Source of the DNA: Acidimicrobiales bacterium mtb01
GTDB lineage: Bacteria; Actinomycetota; Acidimicrobiia; Acidimicrobiales; Ilumatobacteraceae
Assembly: GCA_004379135.1 (NCBI GenBank)
Contig: NBNI01000007.1
Location: 669,501-733,500, forward strand
Direction of reading: 5' to 3'
Length of the DNA: 64,000 nucleotides
Shown here: positions 9,194 to 37,689 of the stretch, one piece after another
Layout of the letters: each line of letters begins with the position of its first letter
Numbering within the stretch: position 1 is the stretch's first letter
Notes under the pieces: generated by a model
Told to the model about the DNA's origin: nothing
The model's input: only the letters and a program-made list of their open reading frames with translations
Database searches by the model: none
Program-made: the position numbers and the translations under genes

Positions 9194-9210
9194 GAGCGTT
9201 CAGTGCTCGT
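9183..9210. terminator. Hairpin across convergent His-rich gene and znuC stops
   Basis: ACGAGCACT, a 10-nt loop, then AGTGCTCGT: a perfect 9-bp stem. The TAG of the His-rich gene is at 9191-9193, ending the left arm. The TGA of znuC (9200-9202) starts just before the right arm. It is a likely bidirectional terminator. Confidence 0.6.
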
Positions 9211-10800: not shown

Positions 10801-10801
10801 A

Positions 10802-11701: not shown

Positions 11702-11702
11702 G

Positions 11703-11728
11703 AGAGAAATGATAATCGTTCTCATTTC
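11703..11728. promoter_or_regulatory. Zur-box-like operator
   Basis: An AT-rich island in GC-rich DNA centred on ATGATAATCGTTCTCAT. It has nested inverted repeats, GAAATGA...TCATTTC and GAGAA...TTCTC, around a core of the AATGATAATCATT type used by Zur/Fur proteins. It covers the -10 and spacer of the znuA promoter, so binding should block transcription when zinc is plentiful. Zur rather than Fur is inferred from the zinc operon. Confidence 0.75.
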
Positions 11729-11737
11729 TTTCGGCAA
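11709..11737 (-). promoter_or_regulatory. Leaderless znuA promoter
   Basis: On the minus strand, TTGCCG (11737-11732), a 17-bp spacer and TATCAT (11714-11709) form a good -35/-10 pair. The ATG at 11701 is 7 nt past the -10, with no ribosome-binding site. It would produce a leaderless mRNA. Confidence 0.7.
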
Positions 11738-14209: not shown

Positions 14210-15025
14210 TCAGCGTTGGCGCGAGTGGTACCGCACCGCGAGATTGCCGTTCTCGTCGCGCACGTCGAACTGCTCGGAGATGTCCTCGACCCACTGGATG
14301 GTTCCGCTGCGATCCATGAGATCGGGAGCGACCGCCAGCGCGGCGATCGCGCGACCCACGCCGAGCGTCGTCTGCGCCTGCGAGAGATCGCTCCCCCGCT
14401 TGCCCGCCCATTCCTGGATGAACTCGGTGGCGACCGAGCCCGGGTAGATCGAACAGCAGGCGATCCCCTTGGGACGCAACTCGATCGCCATGTCGGCGCT
14501 CAGGCGGTCGAGTCCGGCCTTGCCGGCTCCGTACGACGAACTGAAGTGGTACGACGATCCGCCCGGTGACGACACGTTCATGATCGAACCGCCCACGCCG
14601 CCTTCGAAGAGCAGCGGAGCCGCGTGCCACGACGCGACGTAGTGCGCGCGCAAGCCGATGCCGACCTGGTCGTCCCAGATGCTCACCGGGTGCTCCCAGA
14701 AGCCGCCGCCCCAGGCCGGCGGATCGGGAATCTTGTACACGTTGTTCACGAGGATGTTCAGCTTGCCGAAGTCGGACTTCACGCGTGCGAACAGCGCGGC
14801 GATCTGCGCATCGTCACCGTGGTCGACCGCCACGGCGATTCCGGTGCCGCCGGCGTCGTTCACCATCTTCACGGTGGTGTCGATCGTGAGCGGACCCGAG
14901 CCGGTGGAACGGCCGGTGATGTACACCGTGGCGCCCATCTCGGCCAGCGCGATGGCGGTTCCGCGGCCGATGCCACGGCTCGAACCGGTGACGACCGCGA
15001 CCTTGCCGGCCAACTGGCCGCTCAT
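14210..15025 (-). CDS. Short-chain dehydrogenase, DHRS1-like
   Basis: A 271-residue SDR. The cofactor loop is TGSSRGIGRG (residues about 14-23). The NNV motif, VNNVYKIPDPP, replaces the usual NNAG, as in the DHRS1-type branch. The catalytic motif is SYGAGKAGLDR, with the preceding Ser in VSSPGG. It is last in a leftward operon of swivelling-domain protein, LLM oxidoreductase, P450 and this SDR. It is translationally coupled to the P450 by ATGA, so it probably oxidises the alcohol the P450 makes (inference). Confidence 0.85.
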   Translation of the reverse strand: MSGQLAGKVAVVTGSSRGIGRGTAIALAEMGATVYITGRSTGSGPLTIDTTVKMVNDAGGTGIAVAVDHGDDAQIAALFARVKSDFGKLNILVNNVYKIPDPPAWGGGFWEHPVSIWDDQVGIGLRAHYVASWHAAPLLFEGGVGGSIMNVSSPGGSSYHFSSSYGAGKAGLDRLSADMAIELRPKGIACCSIYPGSVATEFIQEWAGKRGSDLSQAQTTLGVGRAIAALAVAPDLMDRSGTIQWVEDISEQFDVRDENGNLAVRYHSRQR

Positions 15026-16293
15026 GCCTTCACTCCGGCCGGCGTGAACTCGACATCGAGGCTGGTGAGTCCGCGCAACATGAACGACGGGAAGTACTCG
15101 TACTTGTTGGAATCGGGAAGCGTGATGGTGTCGATTCGCTTCGACAACTCTTCGAGCGCGACCTTGCCCTCGAGGCGAGACAAGTTGGCCCCGAGGCAGA
15201 AGTGGATGCCCTTTCCGAAGGCCAGGTGGTCGCGCAGGTTCTCGCGGTCGGGATCGAAGGCATCGGGGTTCGAGTACAGGCACTCGTCGCGATTGGCCGA
15301 CGAGAACACGATGATGAGGCGGTCGCCCTTCTTCAGCGGGAATCCGCCCAACTCGGTGTCCTTCGTGACCATGCGCCACATGCCCTGAGTGGGCGTCGAC
15401 ATGCGAAGCGTCTCTTCGACGATGCGTTCGACGCGTGACGGATCCTCCTTGACCTTGCGCCACTGCTCGGGATTCTCGGCCAACAGGCGGATCATCTCGG
15501 TGAGCATCTTGGTGGTGGTCTCGTTACCGGCCACGAGGAGCTGCTGGATGATGCTCAGCATCTCGGGCATGTCGAGCTGACGCTTGTCGGAGATCTCGGG
15601 GTCGTCGTCCTCGATGGTCGCGTTGAGCAGATTGGTGAGGATGTCGTCCTGCGGCTCGGCGCGACGCTTGTCGATCTGCTCGGCGAAGTAGTGCTGGAAC
15701 TCGTTGACGCCGTACTCGGCCTGGATCCGCTCGTCGACGGAGATGTTGGTTCCGATGCCGGCGATCGAATCGTCGGACCAGCGCTTGAAGTCGTCGAGCC
15801 GATCATCGGGGACGTTCAGCGCCTTGGCGATCACGCGCACCGGGAGCGGAACGCCGAATTCGGTCACGAACTCGATGCGACCCTTGTCGATCCAGGAGTC
15901 GATGAGTCGGACCGTGATCTCGCGAACCGTCGGCTCGAGTTCGGCGATCACCTTGGGGTGGAAGGCGCGCGACACCAGTCGGCGGTAACGGGTGTGGTCG
16001 GGCTGATCGGCGGTGAGCATCGTGCTCACGCGCGGATAACCCTCGGCGTACACCTCTTCGAACCGTTTGCGGATCTCGGCCGGCAACGGCATTCCGGACG
16101 ACCCGAACTGGGACGAATACGTCTGCGGATCGCGCAAGGTCTGCATCACGAGATCGTGGCGGGTCACCAACTTGATGCCCATGCCCGGAATCTCCATGAC
16201 CGGTGCGTCCTCGCGCATCTTGGCGTAGTGCGGGAACGGACACTGCATGGTGGCCGGATCGAACGGATTGAACTTGCTGATGTCGACGCTCAT
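15022..16293 (-). CDS. Cytochrome P450 (swivelling-domain operon)
   Basis: A 423-residue P450 with AGNETT at 255-260, ExxR at 294-297 and heme Cys366 in FGKGIHFCLG. Asn replaces the more common Asp or His next to the acid-alcohol pair, a feature shared with the P450 at 19126-20451. The stretch LTADQPDHTRYRRLVSRAF is the heme-propionate-contacting C-helix region. The ATG has GAGGAGA 8 nt upstream. It is third in the operon and coupled to the SDR. The N-terminus has no membrane anchor. Confidence 0.92.
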   Translation of the reverse strand: MSVDISKFNPFDPATMQCPFPHYAKMREDAPVMEIPGMGIKLVTRHDLVMQTLRDPQTYSSQFGSSGMPLPAEIRKRFEEVYAEGYPRVSTMLTADQPDHTRYRRLVSRAFHPKVIAELEPTVREITVRLIDSWIDKGRIEFVTEFGVPLPVRVIAKALNVPDDRLDDFKRWSDDSIAGIGTNISVDERIQAEYGVNEFQHYFAEQIDKRRAEPQDDILTNLLNATIEDDDPEISDKRQLDMPEMLSIIQQLLVAGNETTTKMLTEMIRLLAENPEQWRKVKEDPSRVERIVEETLRMSTPTQGMWRMVTKDTELGGFPLKKGDRLIIVFSSANRDECLYSNPDAFDPDRENLRDHLAFGKGIHFCLGANLSRLEGKVALEELSKRIDTITLPDSNKYEYFPSFMLRGLTSLDVEFTPAGVKA

Positions 16294-16324: not shown

Positions 16325-17296
16325 TCACTTGCCGGCCAGGCGTTCGACCACGGGGGCCACGGACTCCATGACCGACGAGCCGAAGCTGACGTACGAAATT
16401 CCGAAACGCTCGCGGCGCTCGACGATGCGGTCGCAGATCTCGTCGACCGATCCGATGAGCACGTTGGGGTGCTCGCCGAACTGCTCGGGGGTGAGCCCGA
16501 ACATGGGGGCCATCTTCTCGCGGGTCTTGGCGCCCTCGGGCGTGACGACCGTGAAGTAGGCCGCGATCTCGAGTTCGATGTCGCCGAATCGCGAACCAGC
16601 GCCGTCCTTGATCCACTGGATCTTCTGATCGGTGAGCTCGGCCGTGGACGAGCCGATGCCTTCGGGTCCGAGACGGCCGGTGGAGTTGTTGAAGTTCAGA
16701 CTCACGATGTCGGCCTCGCGGCCGGCGATGGTGAGAACGCGCTTGGCACCGCCGCCGATCATGATCGGCGGACAGGGCTTGTTGACGGGCTTCGGAACCG
16801 CCTCGAAGCCGACGGCGTGCACGTGCTTGCCGTCGATGTTCAACTCTCCGTCGGCGAACGATGCGCGAATGAGCGCGATCACTTCCTCCATGCGGTCGAG
16901 GCGAACTCCGGCCGAATCGAACGTGATCCCCATGGCCTCGTATTCGTTCTTGAGCCAGCCGGCACCGATGCCGAGTTCGAGACGACCTTCGGAGAAGAAG
17001 TCGAGCGTGGCCAATTCCTTGGTGAGCATCACCGGATTGCGGTAGTCGACGCACAACACGCGGCAGCCGACCTTGATGGTGCTGGTGGCTTCGGCCGCCA
17101 CCGCCATGGCCGGAATGGCCGCCACCGTCTGCACCGGATGACCCGTCGCGCTGAGGGCCGGGCCGGGTCCGATCACGTGGTCGGCCAAGTGGAACGAAGA
17201 GAAACCGAGCGACTCGGCGCGCTTGGCCAGATCGCGCCATTCCTTCGCCGAGGCCGGCGCGTACGCCTGCACTCCGAAGCGGAACGAGTGGCTCAT
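16325..17296 (-). CDS. LLM-class F420-dependent oxidoreductase
   Basis: A 323-residue luciferase-like TIM-barrel protein of the class that uses reduced F420 (some members use FMNH2). The N-terminus FRFGVQAYAP and the central GRLELGIGAGWLKNEYEAMGI are the usual cofactor-contacting strands. PPIMIGGGAKRVLTIAGREADI is typical of the F420-type subfamily seen in mycobacteria. It could reduce a ketone or double bond, or work as a two-electron oxidant on the P450 product. Its ATG overlaps the stop of the swivelling-domain protein, which ties the two together. Confidence 0.85.
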   Translation of the reverse strand: MSHSFRFGVQAYAPASAKEWRDLAKRAESLGFSSFHLADHVIGPGPALSATGHPVQTVAAIPAMAVAAEATSTIKVGCRVLCVDYRNPVMLTKELATLDFFSEGRLELGIGAGWLKNEYEAMGITFDSAGVRLDRMEEVIALIRASFADGELNIDGKHVHAVGFEAVPKPVNKPCPPIMIGGGAKRVLTIAGREADIVSLNFNNSTGRLGPEGIGSSTAELTDQKIQWIKDGAGSRFGDIELEIAAYFTVVTPEGAKTREKMAPMFGLTPEQFGEHPNVLIGSVDEICDRIVERRERFGISYVSFGSSVMESVAPVVERLAGK

Positions 17297-19035
17297 GACG
17301 GAACCTCCAGGATCGTGACGGCTCCGGTATCGCCGTCGACTTCGATGAGCGCTCCGTTGGGGATGCGCTTGGTCGCGTCGGTGGCCGACACGACGCACGG
17401 CAGACCGAGCTCGCGACTGACGATGATCGCGTGGCTGATGGCGGCCCCCACGTTCACCACCACCGCGCCGCAGGGCATGAACAGTGGCGTCCAGGCCGGG
17501 TCGGTATTCGGCGCGATGAGAACATCGCCGGGTTCGAGATCGCCCGGTTCGGTCGGGTCGAGGATCACACGGGCACGACCGACGTATTTGCCCGGGCAAC
17601 CCGGCACGCCCTGCACGGTGTCGCCGACACCGTGCATGGCCACGCTGGTCTCGCCCTTCTTCGCGTACGAACCGAGCGGCGGGACGACACCGTTCTTGAT
17701 GAAGAACGGTGGTTCGAGGGTCTGCAACTGCTGCCACTGGCGATAACGCTCGGCCAGAGGCACCGAGAACGACTTCGGATCGGCCACGAACTTCTCGAGT
17801 TCGGCGTCGAGAAGCATGAACACGTGGTGCGCGTTGGCGAGATTGCCGAGCGCCGCATGACGGCGACCCAATTCGCGCACCGCGACACGCACTTCGTTGA
17901 CCGCGCGGATGATGTTGGTCTTGGTGCGTTCGCGAATGGCCATCTGCGATGACGCCACGATCGCGCCTTCGAACTGGCCGGCCAGTTCGGCCCCGAGCGG
18001 AGCGACCTTGGCGCGAATATCAGCCGTGAGGCGCTGGCGCTCCTCGGCCTTCTTCTTCTGACGCGTTCGCGGCGACTCGTCGTCGGTCTGCAGACGGATC
18101 CGGTCGATGGCCGCCAGCGCGATCTCGGGTCGGGTCTCCCACGTGTCGGCGCTGATCTCCCACTCATTGGGGCCGCGCGAGCCGAAGTCGAACAAGAACT
18201 GTTCGAAATCGGCCAGGAAAGCCTGCGCATCAGGCGAATTCGAAGCCGACAAACGGCCGAGCAAGCCGCTCACTCCGGCGTCGAATGCCTTGGTGAGGTC
18301 GGCCGACGAACGTACGCGGCGCGAGATGTCCCACATCCGGTAGCTCGGCTCGGCCGAGTCGACGTCGCCGATGCCGGCCAGCAGCTTCATGGCCGTCTCG
18401 GGTTCGCCGAGGGCGGCGCACACCGCGCCGAGGATGCCGGGCGCGATGGCCGAGTCGGAACTCGGCGGCGTGTGGCTGTCGAACAACTTGCGCAGCAGTG
18501 GCTGCAGCATGCGGATGCGCGCCACCAGATCGGCGTCGGATGCCGAAGCGAGGTCGGGGCGGTTGCGACGCAGCCCGATCGTCATCTCCTTCTCGGCGTC
18601 GACTTCGGGAACCGATGTGGTGGTCATGACCCAACCGAGGTGGCCCATGATTCCCTCCACCAGGTCGGGTCGTTCGTCGAGCGGATGCGGCTCGTACGGT
18701 GGTACCTCGGGATGATCGCCGAAGAACGCCAGGTCGAGTTGCTCGACGGTGAGGAGCGGACTGCGCACACCCTGCATGCGCACGTTCGAGAGGTTGATGT
18801 AGAAGTAGCCAGCGAAGAATCCGGCCACTTCCGGGTGGCCCTCGGTGAACTCGTCGATCGTGTAGTTGCCGCCGCGCACGTAGCCGTCGCGCCAACCGAG
18901 CAGGATGCCGTTCTCCCAGCAGAGCTGCTGGCTGAGGGGGCTGGCGGCCGACGGCAGCACCTCACCGGCATTGGCCCGCGTGTAGTGCGGCCAGCGCGGA
19001 CTCGGGTCCCGGTCAGTGATCCAGCGATCGGCCAT
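17293..19035 (-). CDS. PEP-utilizing enzyme swivelling-domain protein lacking ATP-grasp
   Basis: A 580-residue protein. Residues about 470-575 are the phosphohistidine swivelling domain of PEP synthase-type enzymes, ending in VGAAISHAIIVSRELGLPCV with the phospho-accepting His. Residues 1-460 are helix-rich and include a charged, coiled-coil-like stretch (ESPRTRQKKKAEERQR). There is no ATP-grasp nucleotide-binding domain, unlike rifampin phosphotransferase, which carries all parts on one chain. It may work with a separate ATP-binding subunit, as in phenylphosphate synthase, or be catalytically altered. The ATG at 19035 follows a TGGGGGAG ribosome site; the GTG at 19053 has none. It is first gene of the operon, 45 bp from operator-like site A. 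Confidence 0.8.
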   Translation of the reverse strand: MADRWITDRDPSPRWPHYTRANAGEVLPSAASPLSQQLCWENGILLGWRDGYVRGGNYTIDEFTEGHPEVAGFFAGYFYINLSNVRMQGVRSPLLTVEQLDLAFFGDHPEVPPYEPHPLDERPDLVEGIMGHLGWVMTTTSVPEVDAEKEMTIGLRRNRPDLASASDADLVARIRMLQPLLRKLFDSHTPPSSDSAIAPGILGAVCAALGEPETAMKLLAGIGDVDSAEPSYRMWDISRRVRSSADLTKAFDAGVSGLLGRLSASNSPDAQAFLADFEQFLFDFGSRGPNEWEISADTWETRPEIALAAIDRIRLQTDDESPRTRQKKKAEERQRLTADIRAKVAPLGAELAGQFEGAIVASSQMAIRERTKTNIIRAVNEVRVAVRELGRRHAALGNLANAHHVFMLLDAELEKFVADPKSFSVPLAERYRQWQQLQTLEPPFFIKNGVVPPLGSYAKKGETSVAMHGVGDTVQGVPGCPGKYVGRARVILDPTEPGDLEPGDVLIAPNTDPAWTPLFMPCGAVVVNVGAAISHAIIVSRELGLPCVVSATDATKRIPNGALIEVDGDTGAVTILEVPS

Positions 19036-19080: not shown

Positions 19081-19100
19081 AACTAACCGACCGATCAGTT
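19081..19100. promoter_or_regulatory. Operator-like palindrome, site A
   Basis: AACTAACCGACCGATCAGTT, an imperfect 20-bp inverted repeat 45 bp upstream of the swivelling-domain gene. It shares ACTAA, the central CG and the terminal TT with sites B (20490-20509) and C (29013-29032). The form is typical of TetR-type repressor sites. Confidence 0.55.
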
Positions 19101-19125
19101 CGGCCGCTATGCCGACCGGGGGCGC

Positions 19126-20451
19126 TCAGGACCGGGGTCGAGCGGCGATCACGAGCCGCTTGAGACCCCGCAGAACGAACGAATCCTCGAACTCGAAGTC
19201 GTTGCCCGGGGCCAGGGAGATGTCGTCGAGACGATCGAGGATGAGGTCGACCGCGATCCGGGCCTCGGTTCGGGCCAGGCCGGCTCCCGGGCAGAAGTGC
19301 TCGCCGTTGCCGAACGCCAAGTGCTCCTTCACGTTCGGCCGATCGAGGTCGACGCGGTCGGGTTCGGCGAACTTGCACTCGTCGCGATTGGCCGACGCGA
19401 AGAGGAGCCACATGTGGTCGCCAGCCGGAATGCGCGTGCCGTTGATCTCGACGTCGACCTTGGCCTGGCGGAAGAGACCGCCCACCGGGGCCTCGATGCG
19501 CAACATCTCCTCCACGAGGGTCTCGACCAGGCTGCGGTCGGCTCGCACGCGCGCCTGCAGAGCCGGATCCTCCGCGAGACAACGAATCGTGTTGGTGATG
19601 AGTTTGGTCGTGGTCTCGTTGCCGGCCACGAGGAATTGCGTGAGCATTCCGAGCTGCTCGTCGTCGGAGAGTTCTTCGCCGTCGATCTCGGCGTTGGCGA
19701 TATCGGACAAGATGTCGTCGGTCGGGGTCACTCGACGTTCGGCGACGCGCGCCAAGAAGTACTCGTTGAACGCCTTGGTGGACAACACGAACCCGCGCAC
19801 CTGCTCGGTGGATGGGTCGTGATTGCCCACCGGCATCACGAGGTCGTCCGACCAGCGCTTGAAGGTCGCCAGGTCGTCGTCGGGCACGCCGAGCGCGAGG
19901 GCGATGATCGTCATGGGGAGACCCACCGCGAACCGCGACACGATCTCGACCGTGCCGTTCTCACGGAGGTCGCGACAGACGTCGTCGAGGAGCCGCTCGG
20001 TGGTGGCGACGATGGCCGGCTCCATGCCGCGGATCCGATCGGGCCGAAACGCGGGATTCACGAGTCGGCGCTGACGACGGTGCTCGGGTGGATCGGCGTT
20101 GAGCAGGACCGCCGCGCGGCCTCGCTGCATCGACGTGGAGCCCAGCACGGCCTGCATCTCGGGCTCCTGCATCAACTGCATGATTCCCTTCATGAGGGCT
20201 TCGCCACCGGCGGCCGGTCCGGTGGGGAACAGACTCGAGAAACGCTCGGTGTCGCGCAGGATCGCGCGCACGTCGTCGTACCGGGTGATCATCCAAGCGC
20301 CCAGGCTCTCGACCCAGGCCACGCCGCCACCCGAACGCAGGTCGGCGAAGATCGGATACGGACACGCGATGGCCGACTGCTCGCGGTGGATCAGATCGTC
20401 CACGCGCGAGCGGGCCTCTCCTGTCGTGCCGTGGTCGTGGGTCGTGGTCAT
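19126..20451 (-). CDS. Cytochrome P450 (divergent from molybdopterin operon)
   Basis: A 441-residue P450 with AGNETT at 276-281, ExxR at 315-318 and heme Cys387 in FGNGEHFCPG. The Pro after the heme Cys (CPG) and an insertion around residues 75-110 (FPTGPAAGGEALMKGIMQ) set it apart from its neighbour. The ATG at 20451 follows AGGAGA. The intergenic region with the divergent molybdopterin gene carries operator-like site B. The gene ends 26 bp before site A. Confidence 0.92.
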   Translation of the reverse strand: MTTTHDHGTTGEARSRVDDLIHREQSAIACPYPIFADLRSGGGVAWVESLGAWMITRYDDVRAILRDTERFSSLFPTGPAAGGEALMKGIMQLMQEPEMQAVLGSTSMQRGRAAVLLNADPPEHRRQRRLVNPAFRPDRIRGMEPAIVATTERLLDDVCRDLRENGTVEIVSRFAVGLPMTIIALALGVPDDDLATFKRWSDDLVMPVGNHDPSTEQVRGFVLSTKAFNEYFLARVAERRVTPTDDILSDIANAEIDGEELSDDEQLGMLTQFLVAGNETTTKLITNTIRCLAEDPALQARVRADRSLVETLVEEMLRIEAPVGGLFRQAKVDVEINGTRIPAGDHMWLLFASANRDECKFAEPDRVDLDRPNVKEHLAFGNGEHFCPGAGLARTEARIAVDLILDRLDDISLAPGNDFEFEDSFVLRGLKRLVIAARPRS

Positions 20452-20489
20452 GAGGTCTCCTGTCCGGTCCGGGGTCCGGTCACGCCCAA

Positions 20490-20509
20490 AAGTTACCGTT
20501 CGATTAGTT
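20490..20509. promoter_or_regulatory. Operator-like palindrome, site B
   Basis: Read on the minus strand, AACTAATCGAACGGTAACTT. It lies between the divergent P450 (starts 20451) and molybdopterin oxidoreductase (starts 20552), so one bound regulator could control both. Thirteen of its 20 positions match site C and 14 match site A. Confidence 0.55.
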
Positions 20510-20551
20510 TGTGGGTCGGAGCGGACGGGGGTCCCTCCGAGGGGGTACCCG

Positions 20552-22699
20552 ATGTCCGACACCGTCTCCACCCAGCACACGTTCTGCCGCGTGTGCCACG
20601 CCAGTTGTCCTCTCGAAGTCGACGTGCAGTTCGGACGCGTCACCGCGGTGCGCGGCGTTCCCGAGGACCCGATCTTCGCCGGTTACACCTGCATCAAGGG
20701 TCGCCAACTCCCCGATCAGATGGTGCACGACTCGCGACTGCGCTCGGCGTTGCGCCGCCGCCCCGACGGGACCTTCGAACCGGTGTCTTCCGGCGATGCT
20801 CTCGATGCCATCGCCTCCGAACTGCGCCGCATCATCGACACGTACGGTCCGCGCGCGGTGGCCAGCTACACCGGCACCGGCGGCTACCAGAACTCGCTCG
20901 CGGTTCCGGCCGCGCGCGCGTTCCACCAGGGCATCGGTTCGTCGTCGTTCTACACGTCGGTCACCATCGATCAACCGGCCAAGGGGACCGCGCCGTTCCG
21001 TACCGGGATCTGGGAAGCCGGCTACCACAACTTCACCGGCGCCGACGTTCTGCTCGCCGTGGGCTACAACCCGATGGTGTCGAGTTTCGGCCCGACCGGC
21101 GGCCTGCAGGGCACCAACCCGTTCGTCGTCATCCGCGACGCGAAGAAGCGCGGCCTCAAGTTGATCGTGATCGATCCGCGGCGCACCGAACTCGCCACGC
21201 AGGCCGACATCCACCTGGCCGTCAAGCCGGGCGAGGACCCCACGCTGCTCGCCGGCATCACCAAGATCATCCTCGACGAGGATCTGATCGACCACGAGTT
21301 CTGCGATCGGTGGGTCGGCGACCTCGACCAGTTGGCCGCGTCGGTGCGCGATTTCGACCTCGAGTACGTGGCCCGTCGCTGCGACGTACCGGCCCACGAC
21401 ATCATGGCCGCCGCACACATGTTCGCCAACGGAACGCGTGGCACAGCGGGGTGCGGAACCGGCCCGAACATGGCGCCGCACTCGAGCCTGGCCGAGCACT
21501 TCGTGATCGTGCTCAACACCATCTGCGGTCGCGTCAATCGCGAGGGCGATGAGGTCGAGAGCGGATTCTTCCTGTACCCCGACATGCCGCGCCGCGCGCA
21601 GGTGATCGCACCGCGCAACCCGACACCCGGACCGGCCGCACGCTTCCGCAATCTGCACGGCATGCGGGGCGAGATGCCCACCACCACACTGGCCGAGGAA
21701 ATCCTGACGCCGGGCGAAGGCCAGGTGCGCGCGCTCATCGTGAGCGGCGGCAATCCGGTGGTGGCCTGGCCCGACCAGGAACTCACCATTCGCGCCATGA
21801 AGGATCTCGAACTTCTCGTGGTCGTCGACCATCGCATGTCGGCCACCGCCGAGTTCGCCCACTACGTGGTCGCGCCCACTCTGTCGCTCGAGCGAGCCGA
21901 CGTTCCGCATCTCATGGACCGCTGGTTCCGCGCGCCGTACACCAACTACACCGAGGCCATCGTGCCGCGGCTCGGCGACGTGCTCAACGAGTGGGAAGTG
22001 TTCTACGAACTCACCAAGCGTCTCGGCGTGCCGCTCCCCTTCCCCGGCGGCGCGGCACCGACCGATCACCAGCCGAGCGACGACGAGATCCTCGAATTGG
22101 CCTACGCGGGTTCGCGCATGTCTTTGGCCGACATCAAGAACAACCGCATGAAGGTGCACCCCGAGAAGTCGCTGCGCGTGCAAGGCGCCGACCCCGATTG
22201 CACCGCCAGGTTCACCCTCGCGCCATCCGACATCGCCGACGAGTTGGCGGTCGTCCGCTCGGAATCCGATGCCGCCGAGGCACTCGGTGCGTCGTCGTCC
22301 GAGTATCCGTTCCGGTTGGTCAGCCGTCGGTTGAAGCACGTTCTCAATTCGCTCGGCAGCGAACTCCCCGGCCTGGCCGTCAAGGGCACCACCAACCCGG
22401 CCTACATGAACCCCGACGACATGGCCGACCACGGACTGAGCGACGGCGACATCATCGAGATCACGTCGCCGCGCGCATCGCTTCATGCCGTCGTCGAAAC
22501 GGCCCCCGACATCCGGCGCGGCGTGATCTCCATGGCCCACTCGTGGGGTGGTTCGTCGCTCACCGACGAGAAGGTGCGCGACATCGGCTCGCCCACCAAT
22601 CGCTTGGTGTCGGTCGATCAGGGCTACGACCGGGTCACGGGTATGGTCGTGCAGAGCGCCATCCCGGTGCGCATCCGCATCTTCGAATCAGTCAAGTAA
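20552..22699 (+). CDS. Molybdopterin oxidoreductase
   Basis: A 715-residue molybdo- or tungsto-bis(MGD) enzyme of the DMSO reductase superfamily. An N-terminal [4Fe-4S] site is made by CRVCHASC (residues 12-19) and the later Cys in YTCIKG. The MGD-binding domains follow, with VIDPRRTELA typical of the first dinucleotide site. The C-terminal MopB domain shows GDIIEITSPRASLHAVVE. There is no Tat signal, so it is probably cytoplasmic. The start is preceded by CGAGGGGG. The length resembles the compact assimilatory or hydroxylase-type members, and the substrate is unknown. It is followed by an AhpD-type protein and a limonene-epoxide-hydrolase-like protein in one operon. Confidence 0.87.
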   Translation: MSDTVSTQHTFCRVCHASCPLEVDVQFGRVTAVRGVPEDPIFAGYTCIKGRQLPDQMVHDSRLRSALRRRPDGTFEPVSSGDALDAIASELRRIIDTYGPRAVASYTGTGGYQNSLAVPAARAFHQGIGSSSFYTSVTIDQPAKGTAPFRTGIWEAGYHNFTGADVLLAVGYNPMVSSFGPTGGLQGTNPFVVIRDAKKRGLKLIVIDPRRTELATQADIHLAVKPGEDPTLLAGITKIILDEDLIDHEFCDRWVGDLDQLAASVRDFDLEYVARRCDVPAHDIMAAAHMFANGTRGTAGCGTGPNMAPHSSLAEHFVIVLNTICGRVNREGDEVESGFFLYPDMPRRAQVIAPRNPTPGPAARFRNLHGMRGEMPTTTLAEEILTPGEGQVRALIVSGGNPVVAWPDQELTIRAMKDLELLVVVDHRMSATAEFAHYVVAPTLSLERADVPHLMDRWFRAPYTNYTEAIVPRLGDVLNEWEVFYELTKRLGVPLPFPGGAAPTDHQPSDDEILELAYAGSRMSLADIKNNRMKVHPEKSLRVQGADPDCTARFTLAPSDIADELAVVRSESDAAEALGASSSEYPFRLVSRRLKHVLNSLGSELPGLAVKGTTNPAYMNPDDMADHGLSDGDIIEITSPRASLHAVVETAPDIRRGVISMAHSWGGSSLTDEKVRDIGSPTNRLVSVDQGYDRVTGMVVQSAIPVRIRIFESVK

Positions 22700-22728
22700 C
22701 AACACCTCACTCAACCGAAAGAGGAGCC

Positions 22729-23250
22729 ATGGCTCGTATCGACGTTCCCGAAGGAGAGGGCCTCGAGGCCGCCCGCATGTGGCAATTGGCGCCGCACATG
22801 GGCGCCGGAGTGCACGCCGTCACCGATGCGGTGTACGTGCACTCGACGCTGGGAATCCGCGAACGGGAGGTGATGCGCATGCGCATCGCCCAGTTGAACC
22901 GTTGCGAGGTGTGCATGAACACCCGAGCGCGAACAGCGGTCGATCAGGGGCTGACCGACGCGCACTACAACTCGGTTCAGAACTACTACGACCACCCGGA
23001 CTTCTCTCCGCGCGAACGGCTCGCTGCCGAGTTCGGTGAGCGCTTCGCCATCGACCACACCGCGGTCGACGACGAACTGTGGAGTCGTCTGCGCGAGCAC
23101 TTTTCCGACAGCGAGATACTGGAGCTCACGATCACTGCCGGTGTGTGCGTCGGCTTGGGACGGGCCTTCCACGTCCTCGACGTTGAACGAGACTTCGAGA
23201 CTCTCTGGAGCAAGGAAGCTGCTCATCCCAAGGGTGGAGTCACGCTGTGA
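22729..23250 (+). CDS. Carboxymuconolactone decarboxylase/AhpD-like protein
   Basis: A 173-residue all-helical protein of the CMD/AhpD family. The redox-active pair CEVC at residues 59-62, preceded by REREVMRMRIAQLNR, is the hallmark of the AhpD-like alkylhydroperoxidase branch. A thiol-disulfide or peroxidase role is therefore more likely than decarboxylation. The ATG has AAAGAGGAG 5 nt upstream, among the strongest ribosome sites here. It sits 29 bp after the molybdenum enzyme and overlaps the next gene by GTGA. Confidence 0.85.
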   Translation: MARIDVPEGEGLEAARMWQLAPHMGAGVHAVTDAVYVHSTLGIREREVMRMRIAQLNRCEVCMNTRARTAVDQGLTDAHYNSVQNYYDHPDFSPRERLAAEFGERFAIDHTAVDDELWSRLREHFSDSEILELTITAGVCVGLGRAFHVLDVERDFETLWSKEAAHPKGGVTL

Positions 23251-23627
23251 CACCGCTCGACACCGTCAACGCCTTCATCGCCGCCATCGAGCGCAACGAC
23301 CTCGATGCCGCCCTGACCCTCGTCTCACCCGACTGCGAATATGACAACGTGCCGATGATGAAGGTGCACGGCCCCGAGGCGATGCGCGGCATCCTCGGGC
23401 CGATGTTCGCGCGCTGTCACGAGATCTCGTGGCCCGTGCATAGGCAGGCCGCCGCCGGCAACGTGGTGTTCAATGAGCGCACCGACAAGTTCCGCATGGA
23501 CCACGGCTGGGTGGAGCTGCCGGTGAACGGCGTGTGGGAAGTGGTCGACGGCAAGATCACGTTGTGGCGCGATTACTTCGACCTGCAGAGCTACCTCAAG
23601 CAGTTCCCCGCCGACAACCCGCGCTGA
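23247..23627 (+). CDS. Limonene-1,2-epoxide hydrolase-like NTF2-fold protein
   Basis: A 126-residue cone-shaped alpha+beta (NTF2-fold) protein. Its closest fit is the limonene epoxide hydrolase catalytic-domain family: VNAFIAAIERNDLDAALTLVSPDCEYDNVPM at the N-terminus and ITLWRDYFDLQSY at the end, where the Arg-Asp pair is part of the LEH active site. It may open an epoxide or isomerise a product of the oxidoreductase pathway. The GTG start overlaps the stop of the CMD gene. It is followed by a very strong hairpin. Confidence 0.8.
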   Translation: MTPLDTVNAFIAAIERNDLDAALTLVSPDCEYDNVPMMKVHGPEAMRGILGPMFARCHEISWPVHRQAAAGNVVFNERTDKFRMDHGWVELPVNGVWEVVDGKITLWRDYFDLQSYLKQFPADNPR

Positions 23628-23646
23628 TCCTGCGTGGATCTACTGA

Positions 23647-23697
23647 GGATCTGGTGACTGAAAGTCACCTAATAGGTGACTTTCAGTCACCAGATCC
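23647..23697. terminator. 24-bp perfect inverted repeat between convergent operons
   Basis: Each arm is 24 nt and the loop is AAT, with no mismatch. Each arm is itself a smaller hairpin (GGTGACT-GAA-AGTCACC), so DNA or RNA could fold as one long stem or two short ones. CCAGATCC and GGTTAACC-type repeats follow to about 23735. It is probably a bidirectional terminator for the molybdopterin operon and the Liv-type operon. It is also notably AT-rich for this DNA. Confidence 0.75.
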
Positions 23698-23736
23698 CCG
23701 GGTTACCAGAACCCCGGTTAACCAGATCCTCGCGGG

Positions 23737-24444
23737 TTAGTGGGATTCGCCGAGGTAGGAGGCTTCGATGAGGCTGCGATCCTTGGCCAGTTCGGCCGCA
23801 CTGCCCTGCATCGCCAACTCGCCGTGACTCAACACATACGCACGATCGGCCACTTCGAGGGCCATGTGCACATGCTGCTCGACGAGCAGAACTCCGGCCC
23901 CGGTCTCGGTCGCGATCTGACGCAGGATCGGCAGCAGCCGTTCGACGATGATCGGCGCCAGGCCCAGGCTCATCTCGTCGACCATGAGCAACTTGGGGCT
24001 CACCGTCAGGGCGCGCGCCATGGCGAGCATCTGCTGCTCTCCACCCGACAACAAGCCGGCGCGGCGATCGAGAATGGCTTCGAGGGCCGGGAAGTAGCCG
24101 AGCGCCTTCTTGATGTCGGCCGAACCCTTGGCGGCGCCCAGACGCAGGTTCTCGGCCACCGTGAGTTGGTAGAACAGCGAACGGCCCTCGGGCACGTGGG
24201 CCAAGCCCTCGCGCGCGATGAGGTGCGGACGGCGGCCCTTCACGCTCTTGCCGAAGACCTTGATGTCGCCTGAGATGATCGGAACGAGGCCCGACGTCGT
24301 GAGCAGGGTGGTGGTCTTGCCGGCTCCGTTCGGGCCGAGCAGGGCGACCACTTCGCCCTCGTTGACCTGAAGATTCAGGCCTCGCACGACCGACACACCG
24401 TTGTATCCGGTGTTGAGGTTCTCGATTTCCAGAAGTGCCGCCAT
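23737..24444 (-). CDS. livF: LivF-type ABC transporter ATPase
   Basis: A 235-residue ATPase of the hydrophobic amino acid transporter class. Walker A is GPNGAGKTT (about residues 37-45), the signature is [16 protein letters not shown], Walker B is [11 protein letters not shown] and the H-loop is [10 protein letters not shown]. The Met-Ser-Leu-Gly-Leu sequence after Walker B is typical of LivF. It is last of the SBP-permease-LivG-LivF operon and starts two bases after the LivG stop. The transported compound need not be an amino acid (see the shared operator finding). Confidence 0.9.
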
Positions 24445-24445
24445 G

Positions 24446-25198
24446 TCAGGCCTCCTTCGCGCTGCTGCCGAGGTACGCCTCGATCACCTTGGGATTCCGC
24501 TTCACTTCGGCGGGCGTTCCCTCGGCGATCTTGACGCCGAACTCGATGACGTAGATGTAGTCGCACACGTCGAGCACGAGACCCATGTCGTGGTCGACGA
24601 GGAAGATGGTGATGCCGGCGTCGATGATCTGGCGAAGGCGCTTGCCGAGTTCCTGCGATTCGGTGGTGTCGAGACCGGCAGCTGGTTCGTCCATGCACAC
24701 CAACTCGGGGCGAGCCGCGAGAGCACGCGCGGCCGACACCAGCTTGCGCTGACCCTGGCTGATCTCGTTGGGGTATTTGTCGGCTAGGTCGCCGATACCG
24801 AGAACGTCGAACGCGAAGTCGACACCGTCGCTGCCGCGCTTGCGATTGGGCTTCACCAGGTCGAGCAGGAAGTTCTTGGTGGACTGACGCTCGGCCGCCA
24901 CCTGCACGTTCTCCTGGATGGTGAGATCGTCGAACAACTCGAGTGACTGCCACGTGCGGCCCAGGCCCAGTCGAGCGCGCGCGTGCACGGGCATCGAGTT
25001 GATCTCCTCGCCCTTGAACTCGATACGACCGGTGGTGGGAACGAACCCGGTGATGCCGTCGATGAAGGTGGTCTTACCGGCGCCGTTGGGGCCGATCAGA
25101 CCCACCAACTTGCCCTTCTCCACCGTGAGGTCGACGTTGTTCACGGCGCGAAGACCGCCGAACGTCACCGACATTCCCGTCGTTTGAAGCAGACTCAT
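24446..25198 (-). CDS. livG: LivG-type ABC transporter ATPase
   Basis: A 250-residue ATPase paired with LivF. Walker A is GPNGAGKTT (about residues 37-45), followed by FIDGITGF. Walker B is [12 protein letters not shown] and the H-loop is LVDHDMGLV, all standard for LivG. The ABC signature is ISQGQRKL in place of LSGGQ, with the first Gly replaced by Gln, a variant seen in LivG proteins. The ATG overlaps the stop of the fused permease (ATGA). Confidence 0.9.
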
Positions 25199-27408
25199 TT
25201 CGAACCCTCCCCCGCTGCGACCTTACTTCGTTCGGTCAGAGCTTTCTTCCGAACCGCCTTGTCGATCTGTCTCTGTTTGATCAGTCTCGGAGCTCCGGCC
25301 AGACCCTCGGGGTTCTGCACCGCGGTGATGATGAGACCGATGCCGCCGATGAGAGTCGCGTAGCTCTGAGGGATGTGGAGGATGTTCTCGAGGAAGTTGA
25401 AGTTGAGGCCGTTTGGAGCCACCACGCCGGCCAGAACGGCGCCACTTACCGACGCGATTCCGCCCAGGTAGGCGAACGCCAACACGGTGAGCGATGCGAA
25501 GGCCCCGAAGTAGGCCGGCGTCACCGAACCGAAGCGGTAACCCGACAGCGTTCCGCCCAGACCAGCGATGAACGCGGCCAGACCGAACGCGAGGATCTTG
25601 GTGCGCGCCACGTCGATCCCGGCGGCGGCCGCGGCGCGTTCGTTGGATCGCACAGCCAAGAACTGGCGGCCGGTGTTCGACCGACGCACGTTGACGACCA
25701 TCAAGCACAGGATGACCACGAACACCAGACAGACCACGCCGAACCACACGTTGGGCGGGATGTCGTCGCGACCCTTCAGGCCGGCCACTTTGAGAGCGGT
25801 GTTATTGGGGCCGAAGTCCTTGCCACCGATCTTGGGAGGCTTCACGGGTAATGCTCCAAGCTCGCCGGCGAACGTCTTGTTCTTGAAGACCAGCTGCTCG
25901 ATGGCCACCGCAGCCGACAACGTGATGACGGCCAGGTTGACGCCCCGCAATCGCAGGGCCGGAATGGAAATGATGGCTCCGAAAATGGCCGCCACGAGCG
26001 CTCCGATGATCGGCGCGATCGGGAAGGGTAGACCTTCGAAATACTTCGACATGAAGAAGCCCGCCGTACCGGCGATGGCCATCTGAGCAAGCGAGATCTG
26101 GCCGACGAAGCCGACGAGTACCACCAGTGACAGCGCGATCACCGTGGCCACCAAGGTGTTGATGACCGACTGACGCCAGTCGTAACTCCAGCCGAACAAC
26201 AGCGCCAACACGACGGCCGACGCGCCGATGGTGAGCGGAATCACGTTCTTCGGTGCCGCCGCGAAGGGCATCTTGCCCACCGAAATCGCACCGCGGACCG
26301 GCAGCGACTTGCCGCGCAGGAACATGGCCACCACGATCACGAAGAACGGCAAGGCCAAGGTGAGCCCCGCTGTGGGAAGCACACCGCGAGGGAACCACGT
26401 CTGCGCACCCTGATACTGCACCCAACCCTGCAGCATCGCGATTCCCACCCCGGCGACGACCGTCATGCCGAACGACGTGAAGTTGGCCAGCAACGCCGCG
26501 CCGAGAGCCGGCACGATGAAGAGCGGCAGGGTGATGGTGTCGAGGTTGGTGATGGGCGCCGCCAGGATCCCGAGAAGTCCGGCGATGAGCGTGGACAGGA
26601 CCCAGTTGGCGCCGGCCAGGAAGTCGGGCGAGAAACCGAGGACGATGGCGCCCTTTTCGTTCTCGGCCGCGGCACGCGTGGCCAGGCCGAAGCGCGTGTA
26701 CTTGAACAACGCCCACAAACCGAACGCGATGACGGACACCACGATCACGAGGAACAACTGGTTCTTGGGCACGATGCCCAATTCGCCAGGAAGATCGAAC
26801 TTGCCCTTGGGAAGCGGGAAGGGAACACCCGTCTTGGCCAGTTCGCCGAAGCGAATGCGAAGGAATTCCTGCAGGACGACGAAGAGACCGACAGTGGTGA
26901 CGACCTTGGCCAGTACCGGGGCATTGCGTAGTGGCTTGAAGATCACGAAGTGCAGGAACAGGCCGAGGAGAACGGCCACGATCAGAGCGATGACCGTCGC
27001 GGCAGCGGTGGTCAGACGATCACCGGGCATGTCGATGGTGGTGGGCCAGTTCGGCAAGTCGAGGTACTTGCCCTCGTCGCGGAACCAGTTGACCGGGATC
27101 TCGATGAGAACGAGCGGATTGGGCAACGGTGGGATGTAGAACTTGCCCTCGACCTTGAGGCCGTAATACCAGTAAGCCACGAACACGGTGATCACGCCGT
27201 TGGCGAAGTTCACGACGCCCGAACCGCGGAACGTGAGCACCACGCCCAGGCCGACGGCCGCCATGAGAGCACCGGTTCCGATGTTCGAGAACATCGGAGC
27301 CAACTGGCGCGCGTCCCAGGCGTACAGGATCGCGAACACCGCGATCACGGCCACGATGCCGACCAGAACCTTCTGCTTCTTCACGAAGGCCTTGAGCGAT
27401 TGCTCCAT
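25195..27408 (-). CDS. Fused LivH-LivM-type ABC permease
   Basis: A 737-residue membrane protein containing both permease halves that are usually two genes. Residues about 1-370 form the LivH-like half (GVVLTFRGSGVVNFANG near residue 55; coupling loop RAAAENEKGAIVLGF). A linker with KMPFAAAPKNV (near residue 380) leads to the LivM-like half (VGQISLAQMAIAGTAGFF; coupling loop RSNERAAAAAGIDVARTK). Around 16-18 hydrophobic segments are visible. An insertion of about 50 residues (VEGKFYIPPLPNPLVLIEIP) in the first half is probably extracytoplasmic. It would make a single-chain channel for LivF and LivG. It is separated from the SBP gene by two hairpins. Confidence 0.9.
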   Translation of the reverse strand: MEQSLKAFVKKQKVLVGIVAVIAVFAILYAWDARQLAPMFSNIGTGALMAAVGLGVVLTFRGSGVVNFANGVITVFVAYWYYGLKVEGKFYIPPLPNPLVLIEIPVNWFRDEGKYLDLPNWPTTIDMPGDRLTTAAATVIALIVAVLLGLFLHFVIFKPLRNAPVLAKVVTTVGLFVVLQEFLRIRFGELAKTGVPFPLPKGKFDLPGELGIVPKNQLFLVIVVSVIAFGLWALFKYTRFGLATRAAAENEKGAIVLGFSPDFLAGANWVLSTLIAGLLGILAAPITNLDTITLPLFIVPALGAALLANFTSFGMTVVAGVGIAMLQGWVQYQGAQTWFPRGVLPTAGLTLALPFFVIVVAMFLRGKSLPVRGAISVGKMPFAAAPKNVIPLTIGASAVVLALLFGWSYDWRQSVINTLVATVIALSLVVLVGFVGQISLAQMAIAGTAGFFMSKYFEGLPFPIAPIIGALVAAIFGAIISIPALRLRGVNLAVITLSAAVAIEQLVFKNKTFAGELGALPVKPPKIGGKDFGPNNTALKVAGLKGRDDIPPNVWFGVVCLVFVVILCLMVVNVRRSNTGRQFLAVRSNERAAAAAGIDVARTKILAFGLAAFIAGLGGTLSGYRFGSVTPAYFGAFASLTVLAFAYLGGIASVSGAVLAGVVAPNGLNFNFLENILHIPQSYATLIGGIGLIITAVQNPEGLAGAPRLIKQRQIDKAVRKKALTERSKVAAGEGSK

Positions 27409-27450
27409 GTCACTCCCCCTGATCGCCCCTGCAGGCGAAACCCCAACGAG

Positions 27451-27466
27451 TGGACCGAACGGTCCA
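27451..27466 (-). terminator. Small hairpin between SBP and permease genes
   Basis: TGGACC-GAAC-GGTCCA, a 6-bp stem with a tetraloop, just before the larger hairpin when read toward the permease. It may help hold the upstream mRNA end in place. Confidence 0.35.
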
Positions 27467-27471
27467 TGCGG

Positions 27472-27501
27472 GAGGGTGCGGGGATCGCTCCCCGCACCCT
27501 C
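27472..27501 (-). terminator. Strong attenuating hairpin after the SBP gene
   Basis: A perfect 13-bp GC-rich stem (GAGGGTGCGGGGA and its complement) with loop TCGC. It lies in the 140-bp gap between the receptor gene and the permease gene of one operon, with no U-tract. It probably gives partial termination or protects the receptor mRNA, so that more receptor than channel is made. Confidence 0.6.
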
Positions 27502-27548
27502 GACGCGATGTACTGACTACGTACTGACTAACTGGTGCTGATCGGAGA

Positions 27549-28943
27549 TCAGCCAGCCAGTTCGGCGATCGGGTTGATCGCCTTGCCGTTGTAACCGTCG
27601 GCGATGGAGACGTACTCGGTGCCCTGCTGCTGCTGGATACCGATCGAGAAACCACAGAGCGACGGGAAGGTGGGGTTGCCACCGCACTTGAAGTCGCCCA
27701 CGCCGGCCCACATCGGGCCGGTGAAGGCCTTGGCTGCCTCACGGAAACCCGCCGAGTCGGTCACACCTTCGTTGATGAACTTCACGAGGGTCATGAGCGT
27801 TCCGAAGGTCGGTCCACCGAAGCCGGTGTACTCGGGGTTCTCCACGCCGGTCTCCTTGGCCCAGGCCAGGGCTGCGTCGATGTAGGCGTCGTTCTCGGGG
27901 TTGCCCGGAATCTCGTACGAGTAGCCGTAGCCGCCGAAGTACCAGCCGTCAGGCAGATTGCCCTGTTCACCGACCGACTTCAGGTGGTCCTGCATCGGGA
28001 TTCCGAAGCAGAGACCAGTGGTGACGACCGTGGTCTCGATCTCGAGGGTCTTGAGCGCGTCGTACACGCCGATGCAACCCTGGATGGTCACGAGCGGATA
28101 GAAGACGTCGGCCTTGTCGGCGCCCGACGACTGGATGGCGGTGGCCATTTCGGTCGCGCCAGCGGTGTCGGCCACCGGAACGCCAGTGACTTCCACGCCG
28201 AGAGCTTCGAGGATCGGCTTGGTGAGAGCGGTGAAGGCCACCGTTCCGGCCGGGTTGTCGTTGTACACGACCGCCACAGACTTCACTTCCTTGCCTTCGA
28301 TCTCAGGCACGTACTTGGCCGCGAACACGGCGAGGCCCTGAACCACGCCGGGCGAGCCGGGCGTGAACGCGTACGCGTCGGTGGCGAGGAACTCAGGCGT
28401 GGTGACGGGGTTCGGCAAGAAGACCGGCTTCTTGTCCTTCAAGGTGTCGAGGAGCGGAGCGTTGCCGTTGAACATCGCACCGACCAGCACGGCCTGGATC
28501 TCATCATTGGCGAGGAACTCCTGGGCGCACTTCTGGCCGTCCTCTTCCTTGGTGACGAAGCACTTGACGAGTTCGATCGGGCGACCGCCGACGCCACCGA
28601 GGAAGTTATTGATGAACCACACGCCGGCGTCAGCGCCCACGGAGGCTTCGGGGAACGCGGGGGTGCCGCCTTCCTGGTTCACGTAACCGATCTTGATCGG
28701 ATCACCCGAAGCGACGCCGCCGGGTCCGCCGGTGTACGCGACACCGGTGTCGATCGACGACTGCAGAACCGGCAATTCGCCGGCCGGTGCCTCGGTGGCC
28801 GGAGCTTCCGAACCAGCCGGAGCCTCAGTCGCCGCCGGGGCTTCCGTGGCCGGAGCATCCGAGCCGCTGTCTTCGCTACATGCCGCCGCGAACAAGCCGA
28901 GAACGGCGATGCCCGCGACAAGAGCAGTACTTCTCTTTCTCAC
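27549..28943 (-). CDS. ABC transporter substrate-binding lipoprotein (LivK type)
   Basis: A 464-residue periplasmic-binding type I receptor. The signal peptide ends with LFAAACS, lipidated at Cys22. Next comes a 30-residue linker of repeated ATEAPA units (about residues 30-58), a flexible tether common in actinobacterial lipoproteins. The binding domain starts near PIKIGYVNQEGG and has the usual order of the leucine-binding fold (VLVGAMFNGNAPL, FVYN-like AVVYNDNPAG). Extra Cys residues (KCFVTKEEDGQKC, FKCGGNPTFPSLC) could form disulfides. It is first in the importer operon, with operator-like site C about 70 bp upstream. The ligand is unknown. Confidence 0.9.
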   Translation of the reverse strand: MRKRSTALVAGIAVLGLFAAACSEDSGSDAPATEAPAATEAPAGSEAPATEAPAGELPVLQSSIDTGVAYTGGPGGVASGDPIKIGYVNQEGGTPAFPEASVGADAGVWFINNFLGGVGGRPIELVKCFVTKEEDGQKCAQEFLANDEIQAVLVGAMFNGNAPLLDTLKDKKPVFLPNPVTTPEFLATDAYAFTPGSPGVVQGLAVFAAKYVPEIEGKEVKSVAVVYNDNPAGTVAFTALTKPILEALGVEVTGVPVADTAGATEMATAIQSSGADKADVFYPLVTIQGCIGVYDALKTLEIETTVVTTGLCFGIPMQDHLKSVGEQGNLPDGWYFGGYGYSYEIPGNPENDAYIDAALAWAKETGVENPEYTGFGGPTFGTLMTLVKFINEGVTDSAGFREAAKAFTGPMWAGVGDFKCGGNPTFPSLCGFSIGIQQQQGTEYVSIADGYNGKAINPIAELAG

Positions 28944-29012
28944 GTGATTATCCCCCTGGATGGACGACCGGTTGCCGGGTGGTAACCGGATTCAGAGTGC
29001 TTTCCTAGCACG

Positions 29013-29032
29013 AAGTAACCGTCTGGTTAGTA
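29013..29032. promoter_or_regulatory. Operator-like palindrome, site C
   Basis: Read on the minus strand, TACTAACCAGACGGTTACTT. Its core TAACC-GTCT-GGTTA is an inverted repeat. It lies about 70 bp upstream of the substrate-binding protein gene and downstream of the crotonase stop. It resembles sites A and B near the P450 and molybdopterin genes. Confidence 0.55.
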
Positions 29033-36339: not shown

Positions 36340-37689
36340 TCAGTTCATCACCGAGTCGTCGATCCAGCTGCCGTGGAAGCCGAAAGGCACGCGCTGGGGC
36401 AGGTGCACCCGCGCCACCGGCGGCTTCGACAGATCGCTGGCGTCGAGAATCACGAGATCGCTCGAGTCGGTGGCGTCGTCGTAGACGAAACCCATGGCCC
36501 AACCCTCGTCCTCACCCGAGGCCGACGTCTCCTGAACGAACACGAACTCGCCCGGATGCGCCGACGGCCCCAGATCGTGAATGGTCTTCGAACCGTTCGA
36601 CATGTCGTAACGCGCCACGACTCCGGGTGCGTCCATGCCGCCCATCGCCTTGGGACGTGTTCCGGACACCCAGCCGTAGCGGTGCTTGAGTCCGACCACG
36701 CGGTCGTCGACGCGCGGGAACGCGTGGGCCCAATCGTCGAGTTGGGTCTCCTTGACCGCACCCGTCTTCATGTTGAACGACCAGCGGTACATGTAGCACG
36801 GCTCGAAGCTGTCCATGGATCCGCGCCACATCGACGCATGGCGGCCGACGTCGCAGATCACTTCGTCACCGTCGACGTACGCGTTGAGCGGATGGAACAC
36901 GTAGCACGGATCGACCTCGAACCACTTCACGTCGGCATCGGTGCCCATGCGGGGCAGGATGCCGATGCGTGCGCCGTAGTCGTCGTCCCAGCCGATGGGC
37001 GGCAGACCCTTGGCCATGTTGTCCATGTTGAAGACCACGGGGAGGTCCATGAAGATCGCGTGGTCGCGCGTGATCATGAAGTCGTGCATCATCGTGCCCT
37101 TGGGCGTGGTGATGGGTGCGGTATGCACGAGATCACCATTGGCATCGAGCACGTGGTAGGTGACGAACGGCGACACCGCGCCGTAGCCGAAGAAGTGCAA
37201 TTCGTTCGTTTCGGGGCACAGCTTGGGATGGGCGGTGAAGGCCGTCTTCAACTTGCCGTCGAAGTCGTCGCAACCCATGGTCTCGAGCTCGCGTGAGAGT
37301 TCCCACGGAAGGTGACCTTCTTCAAGCGCCCAGATGCGGCCGGCGTGGGCGAGCACATGGGTGTTGGCGGCGCTGGCGGTGGGGTCGAAGATGCAATCGG
37401 CGTCCATCGCGTCGAGGCCCTTCTCCAACTTGGGCGTGCGCACGTAGCGGTTGCGGTACCACTTCGCCTGGCCGCCCTCGAGGCGAACGCCGTGCACCAT
37501 GCCGTCGCCGAAGAACCAGTGACCGGCCGTTCCGCTCTTCGGGTTGGAACCGTTGCGCACGTACAGACCCGACAACGCCTTCGGGATGGTGCCGGTGACC
37601 GAGAGGTTCGTCTCGGTCAACTCGTCGAAAACCGGTGCGTAGTTGCCATTCAGGAACCAGGGCTTCTTCTCGTCGAGGATGTCGGTCAT
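36340..37689 (-). CDS. Carotenoid cleavage oxygenase family protein
   Basis: A 449-residue seven-bladed beta-propeller Fe(II) oxygenase of the CCD/lignostilbene dioxygenase family, which cleaves C=C bonds in carotenoids, apocarotenoids or stilbenes. The four iron His ligands appear in order: TAHPK (about residue 155), MMHDF (about 205), VFHPLNA (about 268) and GFHGSW near the C-terminus. WFFGDGMVHGVRL near residue 63 is also conserved. The ATG follows a CGGAGA-type ribosome site. It lies downstream of an ABM monooxygenase with a palindromic site in between. Confidence 0.9.
   Translation of the reverse strand: MTDILDEKKPWFLNGNYAPVFDELTETNLSVTGTIPKALSGLYVRNGSNPKSGTAGHWFFGDGMVHGVRLEGGQAKWYRNRYVRTPKLEKGLDAMDADCIFDPTASAANTHVLAHAGRIWALEEGHLPWELSRELETMGCDDFDGKLKTAFTAHPKLCPETNELHFFGYGAVSPFVTYHVLDANGDLVHTAPITTPKGTMMHDFMITRDHAIFMDLPVVFNMDNMAKGLPPIGWDDDYGARIGILPRMGTDADVKWFEVDPCYVFHPLNAYVDGDEVICDVGRHASMWRGSMDSFEPCYMYRWSFNMKTGAVKETQLDDWAHAFPRVDDRVVGLKHRYGWVSGTRPKAMGGMDAPGVVARYDMSNGSKTIHDLGPSAHPGEFVFVQETSASGEDEGWAMGFVYDDATDSSDLVILDASDLSKPPVARVHLPQRVPFGFHGSWIDDSVMN

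Follow-up and report, generated by a model that had tools for sequence, protein, structure and literature searches.

What are the short palindromes for that recur between the genes of a large, probably substrate-degrading cluster, and which protein reads them? The question arises in a stretch of 64,000 nucleotides of Acidimicrobiales bacterium mtb01 (assembly GCA_004379135.1, contig NBNI01000007.1, positions 669,501 to 733,500), here called the window, in which an earlier note, made from the letters alone, had marked three operator-like palindromes of 20 bp. The palindromes are real and go beyond chance. On the basis of sequence comparison, they are quite probably the operators of one TetR repressor, encoded at 61709-62347, that would control a multi-operon oxidative cluster. 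The sites in the window, none of them assigned to a strand, are the following.

19081-19100, no strand: operator-like site 1, AACTAACCGACCGATCAGTT, ahead of the operon of a PEP-mobile-domain protein, an LLM-class oxidoreductase, a cytochrome P450 and a short-chain dehydrogenase (SDR); conserved in the genus
20490-20509, no strand: operator-like site 2, AAGTTACCGTTCGATTAGTT, between the divergent genes for a P450 and a molybdopterin oxidoreductase (Mo enzyme)
29013-29032, no strand: operator-like site 3, AAGTAACCGTCTGGTTAGTA, ahead of the binding-protein gene of a Liv-type transporter
53012-53031, no strand: site 4, weaker and of hybrid type, with two mismatches, between an AMP-ligase and a Rieske oxygenase gene
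62411-62430, no strand: site 5, between the TetR gene and a divergent acyl-coenzyme A (CoA) dehydrogenase gene

The three palindromes of the earlier note are found at the places given for them, with the common letters it had listed: in one register, sites 1-3 agree in 12 of the 20 columns (ACTAA, C, CG, T, A, TT), and the symmetric pattern ACTAACCGNNCGGTTAGT with up to three mismatches matches the window at these three places and no others, whereas 100 shuffles average 0.09 matches. Their self-complementarity is 14, 12 and 12 of 20, respectively, and the common CG occupies columns 12-13, slightly off centre. Their placement at the three loci also holds, all three being intergenic in the gene table; the distance from site 1 to the PEP-mobile-domain gene is 45 bp and that from site 3 to the binding-protein gene 69 bp. 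The number three was, however, an undercount, as sites 4 and 5 are two weaker copies. When the window is ranked by a weight matrix built from sites 1-3, site 5 comes fourth and site 4 ninth, ranks 5-8 being taken by other places in the window. None of the five sites overlaps a gene of the gene table, and the non-coding share of 11770-63725 is 9%.

In the whole 2.56-Mb genome, ACTAACCGNNCGGTTAGT at up to three mismatches finds 7 places, 3 of them in the window, while the reversed pattern finds 11; both places with two mismatches fall in the window. The three-mismatch pattern was dropped as genome-wide evidence, as was the two-mismatch pattern over the genus, which gives noise in the AT-richer genomes; a strict degenerate pattern was used instead. 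Because the three-mismatch count did not exceed the reversed control, a sharper consensus and relatives are needed for evidence at the genome level. With a consensus refined from relatives, at up to two mismatches, 9 places are found in the genome, 5 of them in the window, which makes up 2.5% of it, against 2 for the control. The motif scan proposed in the earlier note thus gives noise in its loose form but concentrates in the window once the consensus is refined. One two-mismatch site elsewhere in the genome is AAGTGATCGGCCGGTCAATA, at L160:1501-1520 (G000:C1:435492-435511).

The strict palindrome is WAYTDAYC-N4-GRTHARTW, and the genus set consists of 24 genomes, with the reversed pattern as control. 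It occurs at 69 places, the control at 2. All 69 were examined in context, and 67 of them belong to six promoter regions of one cluster, namely 15 between TetR and acyl-CoA dehydrogenase, 15 between P450 and Mo enzyme, 15 at the PEP-mobile/LLM operon, 12 between ligase and Rieske oxygenase, 9 at the genes for a ChsH2-type OB protein and a SnoaL protein, and 1 at a binding protein (G012). The operator is thus nearly absent elsewhere in the genus, and no strict match among the 69 falls within a homologue of any gene in the window table. When genus sequences are aligned (non-redundant sets of 11, 14 and 14 rows), the operator columns hold 1.57-1.75 bits, compared to 0.61-1.08 in the adjoining 20-bp flanks. 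Random positions or absence from the same loci in relatives, which the earlier note had named as evidence against the motif, is not what we see for sites 1 and 2, which are kept in the genus. The two remaining strict sites, kept in the count, are in G015 on the near-identical contigs C54 and C158 (L113:532-551 and L114:4843-4862), outside the cluster, where they precede a short open reading frame (ORF) whose translation resembles a WhiB protein.

Named relatives of the Mo enzyme come mostly from Ilumatobacteraceae/acIV and other Acidimicrobiia, and nearly all are metagenome-assembled genomes (MAGs). There are 55 such loci; five are cut off upstream and were left out, and 50 were scored, a site counting as present when 13 or more of the 16 half-site positions agreed. 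In 23 of the 50 a site begins 56-109 bp ahead of the Mo match, and five more have site 1 only. In L174, filed as Bifidobacterium breve, a name that is probably wrong, a 74%-identical Mo enzyme occurs with the operator.

The candidate reader of the sites is encoded beside site 5, opposite the acyl-CoA dehydrogenase.

61709-62347, minus strand: TetR-family regulator, proposed reader of the sites from its association with them; TetR_N PF00440 at 64 bits, cut-off 24
62442-63725, plus strand: acyl-CoA dehydrogenase, divergent to the TetR gene, with three acyl-CoA dehydrogenase domains

The earlier note saw no regulator gene adjacent to its sites, which is true of sites 1-3, but the TetR gene, with a site of its own, lies in the window at a distance of some 33 kb from site 3. 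The suggestion in that note to look for a TetR regulator carrying an operator copy of its own is borne out by comparison with relatives. The genome has 17 TetR_N matches, one of them in the window; the profile scans covered most window genes, which leaves some room for a regulator of another kind. The C-terminal part of the protein matches PF17928 at 23.3 bits, under the cut-off of 26.4, and its helix-turn-helix varies little from ortholog to ortholog. Strong orthologs (at least 47% identity) are found in 19 of the 24 genus genomes; across the order, 23 of the 248 genomes sampled have one at E ≤ 1e-20, the own genome being included in both counts.

The association of operator and regulator was counted in loci of 1.9-3.7 kb, a same-type site being one with at least 14 of 16 half-site positions and the expectation coming from a Markov model. 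Same-type sites are present in 18 of the 19 loci of genus TetR orthologs (0.3 sites expected) and in 8 of 12 loci outside the genus, at 41-51% identity (0.0 expected). None is found in the loci of the 16 other TetR genes of the own genome (0.2 expected) or of 11 other TetR genes of the genus (0.0 expected), a few of these 27 loci overlapping one another. The sites thus accompany this TetR and its orthologs and not the other TetR genes examined. As the loci span 1.9-3.7 kb, some sites lie away from the TetR gene's own promoter. Among the named relatives, only the Pseudomonadales locus L208 was found to have a TetR gene no more than 3 kb from the Mo enzyme. In G040, from another family, a 34-kb part of one contig holds seven sites together with the Mo enzyme and the TetR ortholog, the two genes lying about 13 kb apart. 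For G271, the equal length of C185 and the named contig of L193 (30,755 bases) suggests the same linkage. A second palindrome of a different shape (AATCAACCGACCGACCAATT type) is seen near position 1420 of L140, L142, L143 and L144, between TetR and the downstream SDR gene.

It is important to point out that a number of results weigh against the single-repressor interpretation. The strict pattern is met by just two of the five window sites, and it was designed with many of the sites already in view, so that its count is not independent and the scarcity of matches elsewhere is the informative part. At loose tolerance the genome-wide counts are at noise, both for three mismatches in the own genome and for two in the AT-richer congeners. 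Of the 50 Mo-enzyme loci, 22 lack both site 1 and site 2; these are 13 loci of Acidimicrobiia-type records, Ilumatobacter nonamiensis being one source, and 9 from proteobacteria. TetR relatives at 31-44% identity carry sites in just 2 of 15 loci (0.4 expected), and the genus locus L141 and 4 of the 12 outside loci have none. A strong TetR ortholog was not found in five of the 24 genus genomes, all five being incomplete assemblies (62-88%), and three of these (G011, G019, G020) nevertheless have strict P450/Mo or PEP-mobile sites. Finally, autoregulation is uncertain, the distance between operator and aligned TetR start being 33-123 bp.

Two regulators might share the work, the window TetR binding a TGAYC-type site by its own gene only and an unlinked protein binding the CTAAYC-type sites 1-3. 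We consider this distinctly unlikely. It would fit the two positions at which the half-site variants differ, the genus pattern, in which the P450/Mo and PEP-mobile promoters have the CTAAYC palindrome and the TetR promoter mostly the TGAYC type, the 17 TetR_N matches in the genome, and the three genomes that keep sites 1 or 2 without a strong ortholog. However, the ligase/Rieske promoters have hybrid sites that join a CTAAYC half with a TGAYC half, which argues that one protein reads both variants. Other families, too, have CTAAYC-type sites close to their TetR ortholog (e.g. L218, L219, L225, L229), the loci of the other TetR genes (0 of 16 and 0 of 11) have no same-type site, and the window has a single TetR_N match. 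More improbable by far is that the repeats arose by chance, or belong to some conserved element of promoters or terminators in general, and are no specific operator. The loose counts (7 against 11 reversed; noise in AT-richer congeners) could be read in this way, but such an element would be spread over the genome, whereas the strict pattern gives 69 places against 2 over the 24 genomes, with 67 in one cluster.

A separate question is whether the transporter belongs to the regulon. Its genes are all on the minus strand.

27549-28943, minus strand: solute-binding protein of the transporter, unmatched in Pfam at 1e-3, with a single weak relative of solved structure
25195-27408, minus strand: fused Liv-type permease, PF02653 in two stretches
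23737-25198, minus strand: two Liv-type ABC ATPases, PF00005 in both and PF12399 in the second

The earlier note had linked import to oxidation through site 3. The common site is indeed there in this genome, but it is present in only 4 of the 17 genus loci examined (G000, G001, G011, G015; the partial locus G019 was left out), so that absence from relatives is half borne out here. Could site 3 then be fortuitous, or a very recent near-match, with the transporter outside the regulon? The 13 other genus loci have no site, nor anything there above shuffles, and both transporter loci examined outside the genus lack one as well. Against this, in the four genomes the site stands at 68-73 bp before the gene with a score reached by 0 of 300 shuffles, and G012 has a strict site at the same place, 55 bp before another binding protein, 27% identical and beside the same enoyl-CoA hydratase gene. 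A fortuitous site 3 is therefore rather unlikely, and these cases argue that importers came under the operator in some lineages only. Co-regulation suggests that the transporter serves the catabolic pathway, without thereby proving its ligand. Counting itself, the binding protein has 10 matches at E ≤ 0.001 in the own genome, and amino acids could therefore be taken up through other genes.

Returning to the single repressor, a TetR dimer would bind the palindrome of about 20 bp, WAYTDAYC-N4-GRTHARTW, at the cluster promoters. It would hold off the PEP-mobile/LLM/P450/SDR operon, the P450 and molybdopterin genes, the ligase/Rieske pair and the acyl-CoA dehydrogenase, and in this lineage also the Liv-type transporter. 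The repressor would be released by a ligand, which would probably be either the substrate itself or a CoA thioester derived from that substrate. We infer repression over activation from the TetR family. In 14 non-redundant TetR-locus rows, inspected by eye, the operator end that faces the acyl-CoA dehydrogenase runs into TAC(C/G)(G/C)T, and in the window a stretch of this type is followed by six bases and then GTG. The actinobacterial -10 consensus is TANNNT, and the stretch could, as judged by an eye match to it, be a -10 box. A repressor on the operator at that box would block RNA polymerase.

More tentatively, we propose a wider reading, which we hold as possible but less than probable: an undescribed TetR and one operator, with six recurrent promoter targets, may govern a catabolic island that couples the Mo oxidoreductase, the PEP-mobile protein, P450s, Rieske oxygenases and the ChsH2-type/thiolase pair in an as yet undescribed pathway. 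This would extend across freshwater Ilumatobacteraceae (acIV) and in part to other families of Acidimicrobiia, and lineages would differ in which ABC importers they have brought under this operator.

How does this compare with known systems? KstR and KstR2 are TetR repressors of cholesterol catabolism. Like the system proposed here, each is a single TetR repressor over many operons of an oxidative CoA-dependent pathway; both are among the solved sequence relatives of the window TetR, and the window cluster encodes a thiolase along with a ChsH2-type OB protein. The window TetR is not assigned to the NCBIfam KstR equivalog, scoring 40.6 bits against a cut-off of 280. The transporter resembles Liv-type (branched-chain amino acid) ABC transporters in its permease (PF02653) and ATPases (PF00005, one also PF12399), but its binding protein differs, the best solved relative in a profile search being 3i09 at a weak E of 6e-4.

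BkaR (Rv2506 / MSMEG_4718) is a mycobacterial TetR repressor of branched-chain keto-acid genes (PMC3920632). The likeness lies in a TetR protein, a palindromic operator with a 4-bp centre, and operators at the own promoter and at nearby catabolic operons. The BkaR core GTTA(N)T(N4)A(N)TAAC and the CTAAYC-N4-GRTTAG found here, by contrast, have oppositely oriented half-sites, and the target genes are others; read against the motif as printed there, the genus sites do not match the BkaR core (PMC3920632). EdcR of Caenibius tardaugens is likewise a TetR repressor within a steroid cluster with palindromes at several cluster promoters, but its operator TnnCnnTACnAnTnGTAnnGnnA is unlike that of the window, the systems being compared by operator (PMC8700777). 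By analogy, the regulon would work like those of BkaR, KstR and EdcR. No paper with the operator was found among those listed by a search limited to open-access literature and partly judged by title.

TetR repression is a well-known kind of control; the proposed regulon would be new. It provides a candidate regulator together with its operator and targets for a large oxidative cluster, in a group of freshwater actinobacteria that is represented here mainly by MAGs, and genes that act together become distinguishable from mere neighbours. An inducer of the window TetR, if found, would give a direct route to the substrate.

The remaining genes at the sites are these.

17293-19035, minus strand: PEP-utilising-enzyme mobile-domain (swivelling) protein, PF00391
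16325-17296, minus strand: LLM-class oxidoreductase, PF00296, TIGR03621 above cut-off
15022-16293, minus strand: cytochrome P450, PF00067
14210-15010, minus strand: short-chain dehydrogenase, start approximate, PF00106 in the ORF 14210-15463
19126-20451, minus strand: cytochrome P450, PF00067
20552-22699, plus strand: molybdopterin oxidoreductase, PF00384, PF01568 and PF04879
51333-52967, minus strand: AMP-dependent ligase at site 4, PF00501
53040-54389, plus strand: Rieske oxygenase alpha subunit at site 4, PF00355 and PF00848

By Pfam, the rest of the window holds more AMP ligases, Rieske oxygenases, P450s and SDRs and a thiolase with the ChsH2-type OB protein. The thiolase adjoins this OB/zinc-ribbon protein at 41185-42776, an arrangement known from steroid side-chain degradation. 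The operator is present at the corresponding promoter in 9 congener places, and none was found at that of the own genome (42776-42846). Near the cluster, at 9200-11737, matches to ZnuA, ABC-3 and an ATPase mark an ABC uptake system of the zinc type, at which no site was found. Within the cluster, 36340-37689 encodes a protein of the carotenoid-cleavage-oxygenase family (RPE65), below the NCBIfam model cut-offs, which may hint at the substrate class.

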